This document shows, piece after piece, positions 3,325 through 8,493 of a DNA stretch of 64,000 nt. Location: positions 2,294,001-2,358,000 of the forward strand of contig CP080408.1 in the NCBI GenBank assembly GCA_019448215.1, given 5' to 3'. Position 1 is the stretch's first letter, and every line of letters starts with the position of its first letter. The notes beneath the pieces are model-generated. The model saw only the letters and a list, made by a program, of their open reading frames with translations, made no database searches and was not told where the DNA came from. The stretch comes from Thalassovita mediterranea. GTDB taxonomy: Bacteria > Pseudomonadota > Alphaproteobacteria > Caulobacterales > Hyphomonadaceae. The position numbers and the translations under genes are program-made.

Positions 3325-4698
3325 ATGCCAACAGAAACGTCCGGTCGCAAACAACGATCGTTTCTGAGCAATTTGTGGCGGGGCACGCGCCTTGCCATGC
3401 TCCGCACCAATCCCGCCAAGCTTCTTGTCGTTGGTTATGCTGGCTACATGCTGGCCGGCTGGCTGCTGCTTTCGCTTCCTTTCGCGCATGAGGGAACGGT
3501 CGAGGCGATCGACAATTTCTTCATCGCCGTTTCAGCGGTCTCGACGACGGGTCTCGTCACGGTGGACCCCGGCTCGAATTACAGCTTCTTCGGCGAATTG
3601 ATCATCCTCCTCCTGATCCAGGTGGGCGGCGTCGGATACATGACGATCGGGTCTTTCGCGGTCATGGCGACGGCGCACAAGCTCTCGCCGCTTCGCGAGA
3701 AGATGACCCGTGCCGCCTTCGCACTCCCGAAGGATCTGAAGCCCGGCCATTTCATTCTCACAGTCGTGATCTTCACGCTGGTCTGCGAAGCGATCGGCGC
3801 GCTGGCGCTCTATTTCATCTTCGCGGGGGCAGGTCAGGACGACGCCATCTGGAGCGCCATTTTCCATGCTGTTTCTGCGTTCTGTACGGCCGGCTTCAGC
3901 CTCAACCCGAACAGTTTCGAGGCCTATAGCGGTAATGTGGGGCTGAACGTCGTCATATCGGTGCTCAGCTTGCTTGGCGCGATGGGCTTTCTGGTCATCC
4001 ATGACGTCTGGCGCAATTTCACGTCGGCAGCCTTCCATCTCGGTTTCACCACGAAGGTGATCCTTCGCATTACCGGGGCCTTTCTGTTCATAGGCACGCT
4101 CGTCCTGTTCGTGGCCGACCCGGGCATCGCAGCCCTGCAGCCGACAGAGCGTCTGCTCGCGGCTTTCTTCCAGACGATGACGGCAACCACGACAGTCGGC
4201 TTCAACACGGTGCCGATCGGTGCACTTTCCATGTCCGTGCTGATGGTTCTGTTTGTACTGATGGCAGTTGGTGCATCGCCTTCGGGGACAGGGGGCGGTT
4301 TGAAGACGACCACTTTCGCTGCCTTGCTGGCGATCATGCGCTCCACGCTGAAACAGCGCAGCCGCGTACGCTTCTTCAAACGTCCAATCGCGGCGTCACG
4401 CCTTCAGGCAGCTGGCGCTTCGGCGGTCTACTTCATCGTGCTTCTGGCCGTCGCGGTCTTTCTGCTCGGTCTCACGGATCCGCAATTCACCTTCGACCGC
4501 GTTGTGTTCGAGGTCATTTCGGCACTCGGCACGGTTGGCCTCTCCATGGGCATAACGGGTGATCTGTCTTCGCTCGGAAAGCTCATCATAATTGTCCTTA
4601 TGACAGCGGGCCGCGTTGGCATCCTGACATTCGGTATCGCCATCGCCATGCATGATGAGACGCGGGCTGAAGAAGAGGACAATGAACTTCTCATCTAG
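3325..4698 (+). CDS. Trk/Ktr family potassium uptake membrane subunit
   Basis: This is an inner-membrane K+ translocating subunit of the TrkH/KtrB superfamily. It has 457 residues, closer to KtrB length than to the longer TrkH. Four pore-loop repeats can be read: STTGL at about residues 73-77, CTAGF near 190, TTTVGF near 287 and LGTVGL near 401. The glycine in each is the selectivity-filter residue. The pattern GGVGYMTIGS after the first loop is typical of KtrB. The start at 3325 was chosen over an in-frame 3274 because it follows GAGGGAGG and yields a normal N-terminus. No KtrA/TrkA partner lies beside it, so the regulatory subunit must be elsewhere. Confidence 0.9.
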   Translation: MPTETSGRKQRSFLSNLWRGTRLAMLRTNPAKLLVVGYAGYMLAGWLLLSLPFAHEGTVEAIDNFFIAVSAVSTTGLVTVDPGSNYSFFGELIILLLIQVGGVGYMTIGSFAVMATAHKLSPLREKMTRAAFALPKDLKPGHFILTVVIFTLVCEAIGALALYFIFAGAGQDDAIWSAIFHAVSAFCTAGFSLNPNSFEAYSGNVGLNVVISVLSLLGAMGFLVIHDVWRNFTSAAFHLGFTTKVILRITGAFLFIGTLVLFVADPGIAALQPTERLLAAFFQTMTATTTVGFNTVPIGALSMSVLMVLFVLMAVGASPSGTGGGLKTTTFAALLAIMRSTLKQRSRVRFFKRPIAASRLQAAGASAVYFIVLLAVAVFLLGLTDPQFTFDRVVFEVISALGTVGLSMGITGDLSSLGKLIIIVLMTAGRVGILTFGIAIAMHDETRAEEEDNELLI

Positions 4699-4706
4699 GG
4701 GGCTGC

Positions 4707-4735
4707 TTGACTTCCCCCGGTGCGCTCCATATCCA
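4707..4735 (+). promoter_or_regulatory. Predicted sigma-70-type promoter of the his leader
   Basis: TTGACT (4707-4712) and TATCCA (4730-4735) are separated by 17 bases. A start site six to eight bases later falls at about 4741-4744, on or just before the ATG of the leader peptide, so the leader mRNA would be leaderless or nearly so. The -35 match is good, while the -10 match is only moderate. Confidence 0.5.
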
Positions 4736-4743
4736 GCCCGGTA

Positions 4744-4782
4744 ATGAACACAACGCTGTATCACCATCATCACCACGCGTGA
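4744..4782 (+). CDS. hisL: His leader peptide (12 residues, five consecutive His codons)
   Basis: The short ORF reads MNTTLYHHHHHA and stops at 4780-4782. Five His codons in a row (CAC CAT CAT CAC CAC) just before hairpin-forming DNA and a hisS-hisZ-hisG operon are the hallmark of an attenuation leader peptide. No Shine-Dalgarno is present, which fits leaderless translation from the predicted start site. Stalling at the His codons when charged tRNA-His is scarce would change folding downstream. The gene is far too short for normal gene finders. Confidence 0.8.
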   Translation: MNTTLYHHHHHA

Positions 4783-4840
4783 CGCGCCGCATGAGGCGCG
4801 AACCGGTCCGGCTGCGCCTCTCTCACAGTGTTCATCTTCT
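4783..4840 (+). promoter_or_regulatory. Attenuator of hisS-hisZ-hisG: mutually exclusive hairpins
   Basis: Directly after the leader stop, CGCGCC (4783-4788) can pair with GGCGCG (4795-4800). The overlapping GAGGCGC (4793-4799) can instead pair with GCGCCTC (4814-4820), which is followed by a moderately T-rich stretch to 4840. A ribosome halted at the His codons would leave the first segment free and favour the first hairpin as antiterminator. A ribosome reaching the stop codon would mask that segment and favour the second hairpin as terminator. The T tract is interrupted, so terminator strength is uncertain. Confidence 0.65.
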
Positions 4841-4964
4841 AACATTGAACCGCCAGAGGCCCGCAGACGGATAGCTCCGGTCCCGCGTCTTGTTGCCCGC
4901 GTCTGCTTCACTCTTATCCCGGCTTCGTCTAAGCGGAGCGCGCACGACCAGACAGGACTAGCAA

Positions 4965-6455
4965 ATGGCCAAGAAGAAACAGGACGCCGACGCCCAGAAA
5001 AGCGGCAAGGACCTCGCGCGAAAGCCGCGCGGTTTTCCTGACCGCCGCGAGGCGCTGATCCATGCACAGGCCGAGATGATCGACCGCGTCACATCGGTCT
5101 ATCGCCGCTGGGGGTTCGAGGCGCTTGATACCGGCGCATGGGAATATGCTGATGCCCTCGGCAAGTTCCTGCCTGACGATGACCGCCCGAATGCGGGTGT
5201 CTTCTCCATGCAGGATGATGACGAGCAGTGGATCTCGCTGCGCTATGACCTGACCGCGCCGCTTGCCCGTTTTGCCGCTGAGAACTGGCAGACCCTGCCA
5301 AAGCCATTCCGCCGCTATGCGGCCGGTCCCGTCTGGCGCAATGAAAAGCCGGGCCCTGGCCGCTTCCGTGAATTCCTGCAATGCGACGCCGATACGGTTG
5401 GCGCGGCAGGCGCGCATGCGGATGCTGAAATGGTCGCCATGGCGGCTGAGGCGATGCGTGCGGCGGGCGCAGGCGACGGCGAGTTTGCTGTTCGCGTGAA
5501 TACGCGTCGCCTGCTCAATGCGGTCCTCGATGGCGTCGGGGCCAATAGCGACACGGCCCGCCTCACAATCCTCCGCGCACTCGACAAGCTGGACCGGCTT
5601 GGCGAAGACGGTGTCAAGCTCCTCCTCGGCCCGGGCCGCGAAGACGAAAGCGGCGACTTCACCAAGGGCGCAGGGCTTGGCACGTCAGAGATTGACCGCG
5701 TGATGGCATTCGCAAAAGCGGGTCGCCCGACACGCGGCGAAACGCTTGAAGCGCTTGGCCGCGCCGTGGGGACCGGCGAAGAGGCTGAGGCTGGCCTTGC
5801 CGAACTCACCGCCATCGCACGCGGGCTCGAAGCCTTCAATTGTCCGGATACGGATGTCCTGTTCGACCCGTCCGTCGTGCGCGGCCTTGAATACTATACC
5901 GGCCCTGTCTTCGAGGCTGAGCTGCTGCGTGAGACGGTCGATGAGGGTGGCAACACCGTCCGCATCGGCTCCGTTGGCGGCGGTGGACGCTACGATGATC
6001 TCGTCGCCCGCTTTACAGGTGAGAAAGTGCCTGCGACGGGCTTCTCGGTCGGCATCTCACGCCTCGCGACAGCTTTTGCCATCTCTGGGGAGATCGAGAC
6101 GCTGAACGGCCCGGTCGTCATCGTCAACATGAACCGGGACGATCCGACTGAAGCGCTGAAACTCGCGACGGAGCTTCGCGCCGCCGGTATCCGCGCTGAG
6201 GCCTATATGGGCAGCTCCGGCATGCGGCCTCAGATGAAATATGCTGACCGTCGCGGCGCGCCCGTCGCTGTCATGGTCGGTGAGGATGAGATCGCCAAGG
6301 GCGTCGTCACCATCAAGGACCTGAAAGAGGGCGCCAAACAGGCCGCCGCGATCAAGTCCAATGAGGAATACCGCGAAGCCCGCCCCGGCCAGTTCGAAGC
6401 CCCGCGCAGCGAAATGGTCGCCCGCATCCGCGAAATCGTGGAGGCGTCCGAATGA
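4965..6455 (+). CDS. hisS: Histidyl-tRNA synthetase
   Basis: This class II synthetase charges tRNA-His with histidine in the cytoplasm. It has 496 residues, with a lysine-rich N-terminus followed by RKPRGFPDRRE (motif 1 region). The motif 2 region at about residues 114-140 reads WRNEKPGPGRFREFLQCDADT. The HisA motif RGLEYYTG lies near residue 305, and motif 3 follows in GFSVGISRL. The C-terminal anticodon-binding domain covers roughly the last 100 residues. The motif 2 loop differs from the E. coli type, as expected for the alphaproteobacterial HisRS that recognises tRNA-His lacking the extra G at -1. It overlaps hisZ by ATGA and lies behind the hisL attenuator, so its supply is likely tied to tRNA-His charging. 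Confidence 0.95.
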   Translation: MAKKKQDADAQKSGKDLARKPRGFPDRREALIHAQAEMIDRVTSVYRRWGFEALDTGAWEYADALGKFLPDDDRPNAGVFSMQDDDEQWISLRYDLTAPLARFAAENWQTLPKPFRRYAAGPVWRNEKPGPGRFREFLQCDADTVGAAGAHADAEMVAMAAEAMRAAGAGDGEFAVRVNTRRLLNAVLDGVGANSDTARLTILRALDKLDRLGEDGVKLLLGPGREDESGDFTKGAGLGTSEIDRVMAFAKAGRPTRGETLEALGRAVGTGEEAEAGLAELTAIARGLEAFNCPDTDVLFDPSVVRGLEYYTGPVFEAELLRETVDEGGNTVRIGSVGGGGRYDDLVARFTGEKVPATGFSVGISRLATAFAISGEIETLNGPVVIVNMNRDDPTEALKLATELRAAGIRAEAYMGSSGMRPQMKYADRRGAPVAVMVGEDEIAKGVVTIKDLKEGAKQAAAIKSNEEYREARPGQFEAPRSEMVARIREIVEASE

Positions 6456-7552
6456 GTACGCCAGCTGACATTTTCTCCCGCCTCGGCGGCGATATCGTCG
6501 ATCCGCCCATTGTCATGCCGGCCAGCCAGCCGCTGGAGCTTTCGGGCGAAGCGGTTCGCGCGCGCCTCTGCGTCTTCGTGAATGAACTCGGCGAAGAATG
6601 TGCGCTCCGCCCCGACCTCACCCTCCCTGTCGCACTGGCGCAGGCCGAAGAGGGCGTGGGCGGCGAGACGGTCAAACGCTATGCAGCGCGGGCCTTCCGC
6701 CTGCCAGCTGTCGCGGGCGATGCACTGGAGTTTACGCAGGTCGGGTTTGAGCGCTATGGCGCGCCGTCCAATGCCGACACCGATGCCGAAACCTTCGCCC
6801 TCGTCTGCGAAGCCGCGGGTACCGCTGGCGTCACCGCTTGCGAAGCACGCATGGGTGACCTCGCCGTCTTCCCGGCTTTCGTCGATGCACTCGGCCTCGC
6901 GCCGGGTCTGGCCGACGCGCTGAAGCGGGCTTTCCGTCAGGCAGGCGGTGTCTCCGCGCTCCTGAACTCTGGAGGCTCTCAGCCGGTCCACGGCCTCGCC
7001 GCCCGCCTCAAGGGCGCGCGCCCGAAGGAGGCGAAAGCCATTGTCGCCGACATCTTCGCGCTTGCTGGCATACAGCCTCAGGGCCACCGCACCCTTGATG
7101 AGATTGTCGAAGGCCTTCTGGCGCAGGCCGCTGACGCCGAGCATGGCGCGGCGCCTGACACAGCGCGCCAGACGCTCGAAGCCGTCATGGCTGTGAACTG
7201 CCCGCCCGCGCAGGCGGCAGACAAGCTGCTGGCCATTTCCCGTCAGGCAGGCCTTGAAGGCCTCGACCCGGTCCTCGACCGGCTGCAGACGCGGACCGAC
7301 CGCATGAGCGCGCTTGCGCCCGCTTTCATGACCGATGCGCGCTTCGGCACGCCATTCGGCCGCCGTTTCAACTATTATGATGGCTTCCTGTTTGAGCTGT
7401 TTCATCCGGGGCAAGCCGATGGCCGCCGCCCATTCGGGGCAGGGGGGCGCTATGACACGCTGCTGGCGCGCCTCTCGGGCGGCAAGGTCGAAGCGACCGG
7501 CATTGGCGGCGTCGTCCGCCCGGATCGCCTGACAAAAGGAGCCACCGCATGA
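6452..7552 (+). CDS. hisZ: ATP phosphoribosyltransferase regulatory subunit
   Basis: HisZ is a catalytically inactive HisRS paralogue that forms a complex with short-form HisG and is needed for the first step of histidine synthesis. The 366 residues show the HisRS-like core: RARLCVFVNELGEECALRPDLTLPVA near the N-terminus and FNYYDGFLFELFHPGQADGRRPFGAGGRYDTLL near residues 307-340. The anticodon-binding domain is absent, as usual for HisZ. It overlaps both neighbours by ATGA, giving a tightly coupled hisS-hisZ-hisG unit. Placing synthetase, paralogue and HisG together ties use and production of histidine to one leader. Confidence 0.92.
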   Translation: MSTPADIFSRLGGDIVDPPIVMPASQPLELSGEAVRARLCVFVNELGEECALRPDLTLPVALAQAEEGVGGETVKRYAARAFRLPAVAGDALEFTQVGFERYGAPSNADTDAETFALVCEAAGTAGVTACEARMGDLAVFPAFVDALGLAPGLADALKRAFRQAGGVSALLNSGGSQPVHGLAARLKGARPKEAKAIVADIFALAGIQPQGHRTLDEIVEGLLAQAADAEHGAAPDTARQTLEAVMAVNCPPAQAADKLLAISRQAGLEGLDPVLDRLQTRTDRMSALAPAFMTDARFGTPFGRRFNYYDGFLFELFHPGQADGRRPFGAGGRYDTLLARLSGGKVEATGIGGVVRPDRLTKGATA

Positions 7553-8493
7553 CCCGGCTCAAACTCGCTATCCCGTCCAAGGGACGCCTCAAGGACAATG
7601 CAGAGAACTGGCTTGCCCGCGCTGGCTTCAAACTGCGCCAGTCCGGTGGTGACCGCGGCTATACCGCAGAGCTGAAAGGCCTGCCCGAGGCCGACGTGCT
7701 GCTCCTCTCTGCGCGTGAAATCGCGCAGGGCCTGATCGATGGCTCTTTCCATATAGGTGTGACTGGTGAGGATCTGCTCAATGACCTCTCGGCTGACCTT
7801 GCCCGCGACGCATCCGTCATCAAGCGGCTCGAATTCGGCGGGGCCGACGTGGTCGTCGCCGTGCCTTCGGCCTGGCTCGACGTGAACACGATGGCCGACC
7901 TCGAAGCTGCTGGTGCCCGTTTCCGACAGCGTCATGGCCGCCGCATGAAAGTCGCCACAAAGTATCTTCGCCTCACGCGAAACTATTTCGCGCAGAAGTC
8001 CGTCGGTGAGTATCGCCTCGTCGAAAGCGCGGGCGCGACAGAGGCCGCCCCGGCCTCCGGCCAGGCCGAAGTCATCGTCGACATTACGTCGACCGGCACG
8101 ACGCTCCGCGCCAATAGTCTCAAGGTTCTCGATGATGGCGTGATCCTGAAAAGCCGCGCTGCCCTCGCTGGCTCGCTTCGCGCCGACTGGTCGGGCGGGG
8201 CGAAAGACGTTCTTCAGAAACTGCTCGCCTCGATCGAAGCGGTCGAATCGGCAGACGCGACCAGCCTCCTCGTCGTTGGCGGAAGGGTCGAAGAATCACT
8301 GCGCGCCGAGCTTGGCCTCACAGAGGTCTCGGCCAATTCCTTCCTCAGCCCATCCGAGAAAGCGGTGGAAAATGCCCGGAAACTCACTGAATCCGGCGTT
8401 AATTCTGTCTCGATCCTGAAGTCGGACTTCATTTTTTCCCAGGCGACGCCCTCCTATGAGGCATTCATTGCCCAATTTTCGACACGTGCTTGA
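7549..8493 (+). CDS. hisG: ATP phosphoribosyltransferase catalytic subunit
   Basis: HisG condenses ATP with PRPP to phosphoribosyl-ATP, the committed step of histidine synthesis, and works here with HisZ. The protein has 314 residues: longer than the shortest HisG forms, but similar to other alphaproteobacterial HisG proteins. It begins LKLAIPSKGRLKD, has ADVLLLSAREIAQGLIDGSFHIGVTGEDLL and, near residue 180, the PRPP-binding DITSTGTTLRANSLK. I see no obvious C-terminal ACT-like regulatory domain, consistent with a HisZ-dependent enzyme. It is the last gene of the operon and is followed after 69 bases by a strong terminator. Confidence 0.93.
   Translation: MTRLKLAIPSKGRLKDNAENWLARAGFKLRQSGGDRGYTAELKGLPEADVLLLSAREIAQGLIDGSFHIGVTGEDLLNDLSADLARDASVIKRLEFGGADVVVAVPSAWLDVNTMADLEAAGARFRQRHGRRMKVATKYLRLTRNYFAQKSVGEYRLVESAGATEAAPASGQAEVIVDITSTGTTLRANSLKVLDDGVILKSRAALAGSLRADWSGGAKDVLQKLLASIEAVESADATSLLVVGGRVEESLRAELGLTEVSANSFLSPSEKAVENARKLTESGVNSVSILKSDFIFSQATPSYEAFIAQFSTRA

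Follow-up and report, generated by a model that had tools for sequence, protein, structure and literature searches.

A conserved His-codon leader with mutually exclusive RNA helices upstream of hisS-hisZ-hisG in Thalassovita mediterranea and its relatives: a candidate ribosome-position switch

The hisS-hisZ-hisG operon of Thalassovita mediterranea is preceded by a short open reading frame (ORF) with a run of His codons and by RNA segments that can pair in mutually exclusive ways. The operon lies in a 64,000-nt stretch of contig CP080408.1 (assembly GCA_019448215.1), hereafter the window, and positions are counted from its first letter. The His leader and the folds ahead of hisS are confirmed as real and far above chance; conservation makes the case for the leader, folding energy alone being weak evidence. 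The leader is most likely a gauge that raises the operon when charged His-tRNA runs short. On balance, we lean toward a leaderless His leader peptide that serves as a ribosome-position RNA switch controlling transcription into hisS-hisZ-hisG. If this is true, one His-tRNA gauge governs both the synthetase and the first step of histidine synthesis, and does so in a group in which leaderless RNAs are reportedly common.

The leader ORF, its operon, and its conservation

The leader begins with the ATG at 4744, encodes Met-Asn-Thr-Thr-Leu-Tyr-His5-Ala with the His codons at 4762-4776, and ends with TGA at 4780-4782, 182 nt from the hisS ATG (4965). The original prediction described a 12-codon ORF with five consecutive His codons and two mutually exclusive hairpins at this distance from hisS, and the sequence confirms this description. 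The features are listed in Table 1.

Table 1. Features of the leader region and the hisS-hisZ-hisG operon in the window
Feature	Position	Strand	Evidence or remarks
TrkH-like gene upstream of leader	3334-4698		TIGR00933, 287 bits, below cut-off 331
Predicted promoter: -35 TTGACT (4707-4712), 17-nt spacer, -10 TATCCA (4730-4735)	4707..4735	+	sequence; TTGAC kept in 63/63 leaders
Leader ORF MNTTLYHHHHHA, stop TGA	4744..4782	+	predicted leaderless; 11-12 codons, ATG, no SD core in 63/63; CAC/CAT interchange at codons 6-11
Segment S (AUGAACAC), start of leader, partner of E	4744..4751	+	GAACAC/GUGUUC in most, GAAAAC/GUUUUC in MKT group
Segment A (CGCGCC), immediately 3' of stop codon	4783..4788	+	identical in 58/63
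Segment B (GAGGCGCG), partner of A, C, or downstream G	4793..4800	+	folds and alignment
Segment C (GCGCCTC), partner of B, possibly of D	4814..4820	+	B:C, 98.0% of cells paired
Segment E (GUGUUCAU), beyond C, partner of S or partly of F	4828..4835	+	covariation with S
Segment F, partner of 4826-4832 in alternative fold	4841..4847	+	minimum-energy folds only
Segment D, putative partner of C and its 5' flank in alternative fold	4855..4871	+	folds
Segment G, partner of B and its 5' flank in best full-leader fold	4884..4896	+	minimum-energy folds only
Hairpin CGGCUUCG-UCUAAG-CGGAGC ahead of hisS ribosome site	4920..4942	+	pattern in 59/63 leaders at that spacing (sole spacing searched)
hisS, histidyl-tRNA synthetase	4965..6455	+	TIGR00442, 365.3 bits, passes NCBIfam cut-off
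hisZ, ATP phosphoribosyltransferase regulatory subunit	6452..7552	+	NF008953, 227 bits, below cut-off 384
hisG, ATP phosphoribosyltransferase	7549..8493	+	TIGR00070, 162.6 bits, passes NCBIfam cut-off

A search with hisS gave a match in 60 of 61 family genomes, and 27 of the best 30 loci, the window's own included, carried the leader upstream. The 27 leaders were aligned and a covariance model, R1, was built from the alignment. R1 matched 26 of the 29 genomes of the genus and 63 of the 105 family genomes, one copy each, spread over 3 of 10 genera; in a class-wide draw, it matched 2 of 289 genomes, both members of the family. The comparison across relatives suggested with the original prediction was thus passed, at 27/30 loci and then at 63/105 family genomes with a His-codon leader. 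hisS was recognized 3' of the leader in 62 of the 63 R1 genomes (missed in G535). A pattern scan of wider genome contigs, a collection that may omit near relatives, returned 31 stretches; the 60 nt 5' of the motif carried no His run in any of them (longest, 2 codons).

The leader ORFs in the 63 genomes were chosen by a scripted score favoring His codons and an A-like hexamer 3' of the stop; both are therefore partly chosen features. All 63 ORFs start with ATG; 58 have 12 codons and 5 have 11, with TGA as the stop in 59 and TAA in 4. Each leader contains 3-7 His codons, and the longest run varies from 2 (4 leaders) to 6 (40 leaders). When the 58 leaders of 12 codons are compared, CAT stands at codon 9 in 38 of them and CAC in 20, and codon 7 reads CAC in 50 and CAT in 5; the other positions of the run also switch, less evenly. 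Since CAC and CAT are exchanged within the run, the amino acid itself is the conserved thing.

Transcription is inferred from promoter spacing to start at about 4743-4744. A sigma-70 consensus scan of the leader returned no promoter; TATCCA lacks the final T that the scan demands. The leader RNA is well predicted to be leaderless, with its 5' end at the start codon as in the trpL type of Sinorhizobium meliloti, because TTGAC lies 35-39 nt 5' of the leader ATG and an SD core (GGAG, GAGG, or AGGA) is absent from the 20 nt 5' of that ATG in 63/63 leaders. The leaderless start of the original prediction is supported, as a prediction, in all 63 leaders.

In hisS-hisZ-hisG, consecutive genes overlap by 4 bases, and hisZ follows hisS in 30/30 loci. 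The HisZ encoded in the window shares 75-98% identity with that of L002-L009, 70-73% with that of group g8 (L016 and L018), and 59% with that of L017. It is only 44-51% identical to HisZ of the other 18 loci, including L010-L015 of the same genus, whose HisS is 81-82% identical. In view of these sequence comparisons, another hisZ may have taken the place of the original one in the operon.

Ahead of hisS, TTCACT (4907-4912) lies 15 nt 5' of the UCUAA of the pre-hisS hairpin. This pre-hisS element (4907-4942), a TTCACA-like box 15 nt before a loop of the UCUAA/UCUAU type, was present in 59/63 leaders, and paired changes were seen in its stem by eye. The box and hairpin may represent a second promoter or else an RNA element.

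Pairing segments and the proposed switch

After the stop codon, the leader RNA runs CGCGCC-GCAT-GAGGCGCG-AACCGGTCCGGCT-GCGCCTC-...-GTGTTCAT. CGCGCC (4783-4788) can pair with GGCGCG (4795-4800), and GAGGCGC (4793-4799) can pair with GCGCCTC (4814-4820). A:B and B:C are mutually exclusive because both draw on 4793-4800. A lies directly after the stop and the core of B 11-14 nt after it, a spacing that is constant across the 63 leaders. The mutually exclusive helices A:B, B:C, and S:E are conserved, with some covariation.

Folding of six windows was compared with shuffled sequences. Only 4783-4900 stood out (z -3.2, 1/200 shuffles as good); the whole 222-nt leader gave z -2.0 (5/200 as good), and two short hairpin windows were unremarkable (57/200 and 50/200 as good). 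In the best fold of 4783-4900, neither A nor C is the partner of B, which pairs instead with 4884-4892, around C:D and E:F; this argues against a plain A-B-C switch.

In the alignment, A:B was paired in 99.7% of cells and nearly invariant apart from one compensatory change (G503, CACGCC with GGCGTG). The outer pair of B:C was GC, GU, AU, or CG. For S:E, GAACAC/GUGUUC was found in most leaders of groups g1 and g5 and GAAAAC/GUUUUC in most of the MKT group, and 3 pairs had two-sided changes; in G503 the helix was read by eye as GAGC/GCUC, a row that the model misaligned. The whole structure (S:E, B:C, and inner stem) showed 16 two-sided cells versus 4.1 (sd 1.8) in shuffles, none of 500 being as high, and 92.2% of its cells were paired versus 34-52% when it was slid; these values come from an alignment that was fitted to the tested structure and is thus biased toward it. 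The number of pairs with a two-sided change, 4 versus 2.4 expected, was not unusual (73/500). Much of the S:E covariation stems from one clade, about 20 of the 57 distinct rows cannot form the two outer pairs, and the helix is broken in G516. RNAalifold on the 27 leaders recovered A:B and no pair with two-sided changes.

The S:E partners were also swapped between clades. S:E of the MKT group reached -7.5 kcal/mol with its own partner versus -3.1 and -3.7 with those of other clades, which supports S:E there. In g8, where S:E is weak (-4.1), the test failed, since S of g8 paired better with E of other clades (-8.1).

For the preferred ribosome-position switch, the following course is proposed. 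When charged His-tRNA is plentiful, the ribosome would reach the stop, cover A, and expose the 5' end; B:C and S:E would then form the off state, in which S:E would also hide the leader AUG. When it is scarce, the ribosome would wait at the first His codons with its footprint over S and A free. A:B would form, B:C and S:E would be prevented, and RNA polymerase would continue into the operon.

These states were folded with the ribosome footprint held unpaired, assuming 15 nt before the P-site and 12 nt from the A-site. The folding covered 62 of the 63 leaders (without G503), and the results given are from g1, MKT, and g5 (60 leaders, g8 excluded), in that order. With the RNA ending just after E and no ribosome, S:E was 0.95, 0.89, and 0.81. 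When the first His codon of the run occupied the ribosomal A-site, S:E was 0.00. With the ribosome at the stop, A:B was 0.00, B:C was 0.99, 0.96, and 0.95, and S:E was 0.94, 0.83, and 0.80. B:C and S:E therefore accompany a finished ribosome, and a stalled one should block S:E directly and B:C via A:B. At equilibrium on the same RNA, with the ribosome at His codon 1, B:C beat A:B (A:B 0.04, 0.09, and 0.01). Since B:C is favored even with A free, the on state needs co-transcriptional kinetics in which A:B is made first. With 45 nt more RNA, A:B and downstream folds won in most states, except when the ribosome stood at the sixth His codon or at the stop. These longer-RNA folds, and the pairing of B with 4884-4892, imply that the switch decision must fall early, before that stretch is made.

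The tRNA-Gln variant and rival readings of the leader

ARAGORN placed a tRNA-Gln(UUG) gene in the interval from leader to hisS at 7 of the 63 leader loci (G013, G050, G038, G508, G034, G008, and G017). This extra tRNA gene, or what looks like a decayed copy, was noted inside the presumed hisS leader transcript at L010, L011, L013, L014, L016, and L018 (and L183-L187, L128, and L129). Gln codons occur in 7/7 leaders with the tRNA versus 2/56 others (G507 and G028); the seven runs are HHHHQQT (four times), HHHHQHM, QQHHHHQHS, and QQHHHHHS. Between the leader and hisS of G507, a decayed tRNA was seen by eye, and tRNA scraps were likewise seen in G506 and G059, whose leaders have no Gln codon. A different tRNA-Gln(UUG) gene lies elsewhere in G038, G507, G013, G005, and G008 (ARAGORN), and G000 and G059 have the same or nearly the same tRNA-Gln anticodon-to-T-arm sequence. 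The hisS-linked gene is an extra one, since another tRNA-Gln(UUG) is found elsewhere in these genomes. In a blastn search with the hisS-linked tRNA-Gln, 6 of 18 genomes gave that copy alone and the other 12 gave no match.

The association of tRNA-Gln with Gln codons gave a Fisher p of 6.5e-8 over the 63 leaders, kinship being ignored. A HisS tree was built from 42 rows, including 3 loci without leader; G511, whose HisS frame looked broken, and 23 of the 35 g5 leaders were dropped. Each trait needs 3 changes on the tree, which offers 2 independent pairs if branches must be supported and 3 if all branches count, too few for a sign test to reach 0.05.

An extended form of the switch is conceivable, and we put it forward tentatively. 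The leader would be a two-ended sensor in which a stalled ribosome hides S from E and frees A, and S:E later stops initiation; the variant leader would read both His and Gln and regulate the tRNA-Gln inside the attenuated transcript. In the dual-sensing variant, losses of the tRNA and of the Gln codons would coincide. If so, the tRNA, the synthetase, and the first pathway step answer to one gauge, and dual sensing could be tested directly on the leaders that nature provides, some with an internal tRNA-Gln and Gln codons and others without them.

Terminator scans detected no intrinsic terminator in the leader (+ strand) or in the scanned stretches of the relatives L185, L193, and L194, and the mean U count in the 8 nt after C is high in MKT only (4.6, n = 10; g1 2.7, n = 14; g5 2.1, n = 35; g8 1.0, n = 2); both results count against the preferred switch. 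Of the original prediction, a His leader peptide ahead of hisS-hisZ-hisG is supported, but the word attenuator in its classical sense is not fully so. The classical layout has the segment order A-D, and the leader segments follow it. With plentiful His, A:B and C:D would form and C:D would terminate; a ribosome stalled on A would give the antiterminator B:C. As soon as the RNA includes D, the best folds do contain C:D with a nested E-F hairpin, but such a four-segment attenuator is unlikely. Across the 27 leaders, no clear U-tract follows D (the nearest to one is CCTTTTG, in the MKT group). The swap test of C:D in MKT pointed neither way, with -15.5 for its own partners versus -17.9 and -14.2 for those of other clades. 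Because the His codons lie upstream of A, the switch logic should differ from the textbook; a ribosome waiting on the first His codons does not cover A, and B:C is permitted as well by one at the stop, so B:C would not report starvation. Release of polymerase by Rho is a variant of the switch model, with which its probability overlaps, and by itself we hold it doubtful. Here, the off state would free a pyrimidine-rich stretch after E for Rho, which would fit the negative intrinsic terminator scan of the leader and the C/U-rich look, by eye, of 4900-4932. However, the C/G bubble is unremarkable: the best 78-nt window in G000 scored 1.56, a value that 16% of background 137-nt stretches attain, and the median of the 63 leaders was 1.51, attained by 21%.

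The empty terminator search would also suit folds that control hisS translation or mRNA stability through access to the ribosome site or of RNase, rather than transcription. Attenuators working on the ribosome site have been documented (PMC9413887), and the window has a hairpin 22 nt 5' of the hisS ATG, with a similar one at the same place in relatives. Yet the leader is 182 nt away, an unsystematic look by eye noticed no complement of the hisS ribosome site, and the tRNA-Gln lying between leader and hisS in 7/63 would be cut out. Such excision would sever the link between leader and ribosome site and so favors transcriptional control; we consider control at the hisS ribosome site quite improbable. 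It is very hard to credit that the ORF is merely a small-protein gene, or that its peptide works in trans as described for peTrpL of Sinorhizobium (PMC7298713), with incidental RNA folds. The leader looks like a sensor: His codons are kept despite codon exchange, exclusive pairing is tied to the ORF, and a single copy stands before hisS.

His leaders elsewhere and comparison with known systems

Sixty further hisS-upstream regions were surveyed in the order. A His leader was found in 3/21 regions of f1 and 9/13 of f2, which we infer to be Hyphomonadaceae and Caulobacteraceae, respectively, and none of the 26 regions of f3, f4, and f5 had a convincing one; ORFs with 3 scattered His (L065, L078, L093, L094, and L097) were left uncounted. 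Caulobacter crescentus is taken here to belong to the same order as the organism of the window. Outside the order, none of 40 hisS-upstream loci (39 of 240 class-survey genomes with a hit) had a convincing His leader, with longer ORFs of 3-4 scattered His (L144, L146, and L154) left uncounted.

The f2 leader is different (e.g., MTRTPHHHGHHHHPTSPRGIGRVRSL), and a GCTA box starts 15-18 nt before its ATG in 9/9 cases. These leaders (L082-L087, L090, L116, and L118) lie 171-284 nt 5' of hisS, with the ATG just after a GCTA-type -10. GCGGAYGGGG, present in 7/9, has a best downstream pairing of -20.1 to -21.3 kcal/mol and a best pairing within the leader codons of -11.4 to -17.4 kcal/mol, so the two may compete. 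In L083, a second short ORF starting from ATGACCCTAAATGCC was seen by eye between leader and hisS, its stop overlapping the hisS ATG; this suggests coupled translation in one f2 genome. L085 and L087 have no such overlap. The original prediction had overlooked this different His leader in another family, as well as the S:E helix and the tRNA-Gln/Gln-codon variant.

A 2004 work by Vitreschak and others is said to be a survey of proteobacterial attenuators. Rfam at the gathering threshold gave no match over the window, and RF00514 was absent from the 3 matches of a loose scan (4600-5100, E up to 5). Like the enterobacterial his leader (RF00514, His_leader), the present leader has a short His-codon peptide, exclusive hairpins, and histidine genes downstream. 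Unlike it, it is leaderless by prediction, has A right after the stop, has hisS first, and involves its start region in the switch, and no terminator was found.

Excerpts of the open-licence literature searched (PMC2965389, PMC7298713, PMC9413887, PMC4117421, PMC4833913, and PMC10117765) hold no His leader before hisS in alphaproteobacteria. Naville and Gautheret (2010) reported Bacillus His leaders before hisZ and a hisS paralogue, found through premature terminators (PMC2965389). They share with the present case a His-codon ORF before hisZ or a hisS-like gene, but they belong to Firmicutes, and excerpts of that paper name no alphaproteobacterial case. Caulobacter crescentus has a leader CDS before trpS and an ilv leader (PMC4117421), and the former likewise stands ahead of a tRNA-synthetase gene; these leaders serve other amino acids, however, and the main text contains neither 'histidine' nor 'hisS'. 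The same source, in excerpt, reports 375 leaderless RNAs in Caulobacter. A like start is seen in the leaderless trpL attenuator of S. meliloti (PMC7298713, PMC10117765), which is alphaproteobacterial and ribosome-mediated with an RNA starting at the ATG; it differs in using Trp, trpE, and a terminator, and a start-region helix goes unmentioned in the excerpts. The His leader would be a clean natural case in which to study the reading of ribosome position on an RNA that has neither a 5' leader nor an evident terminator.
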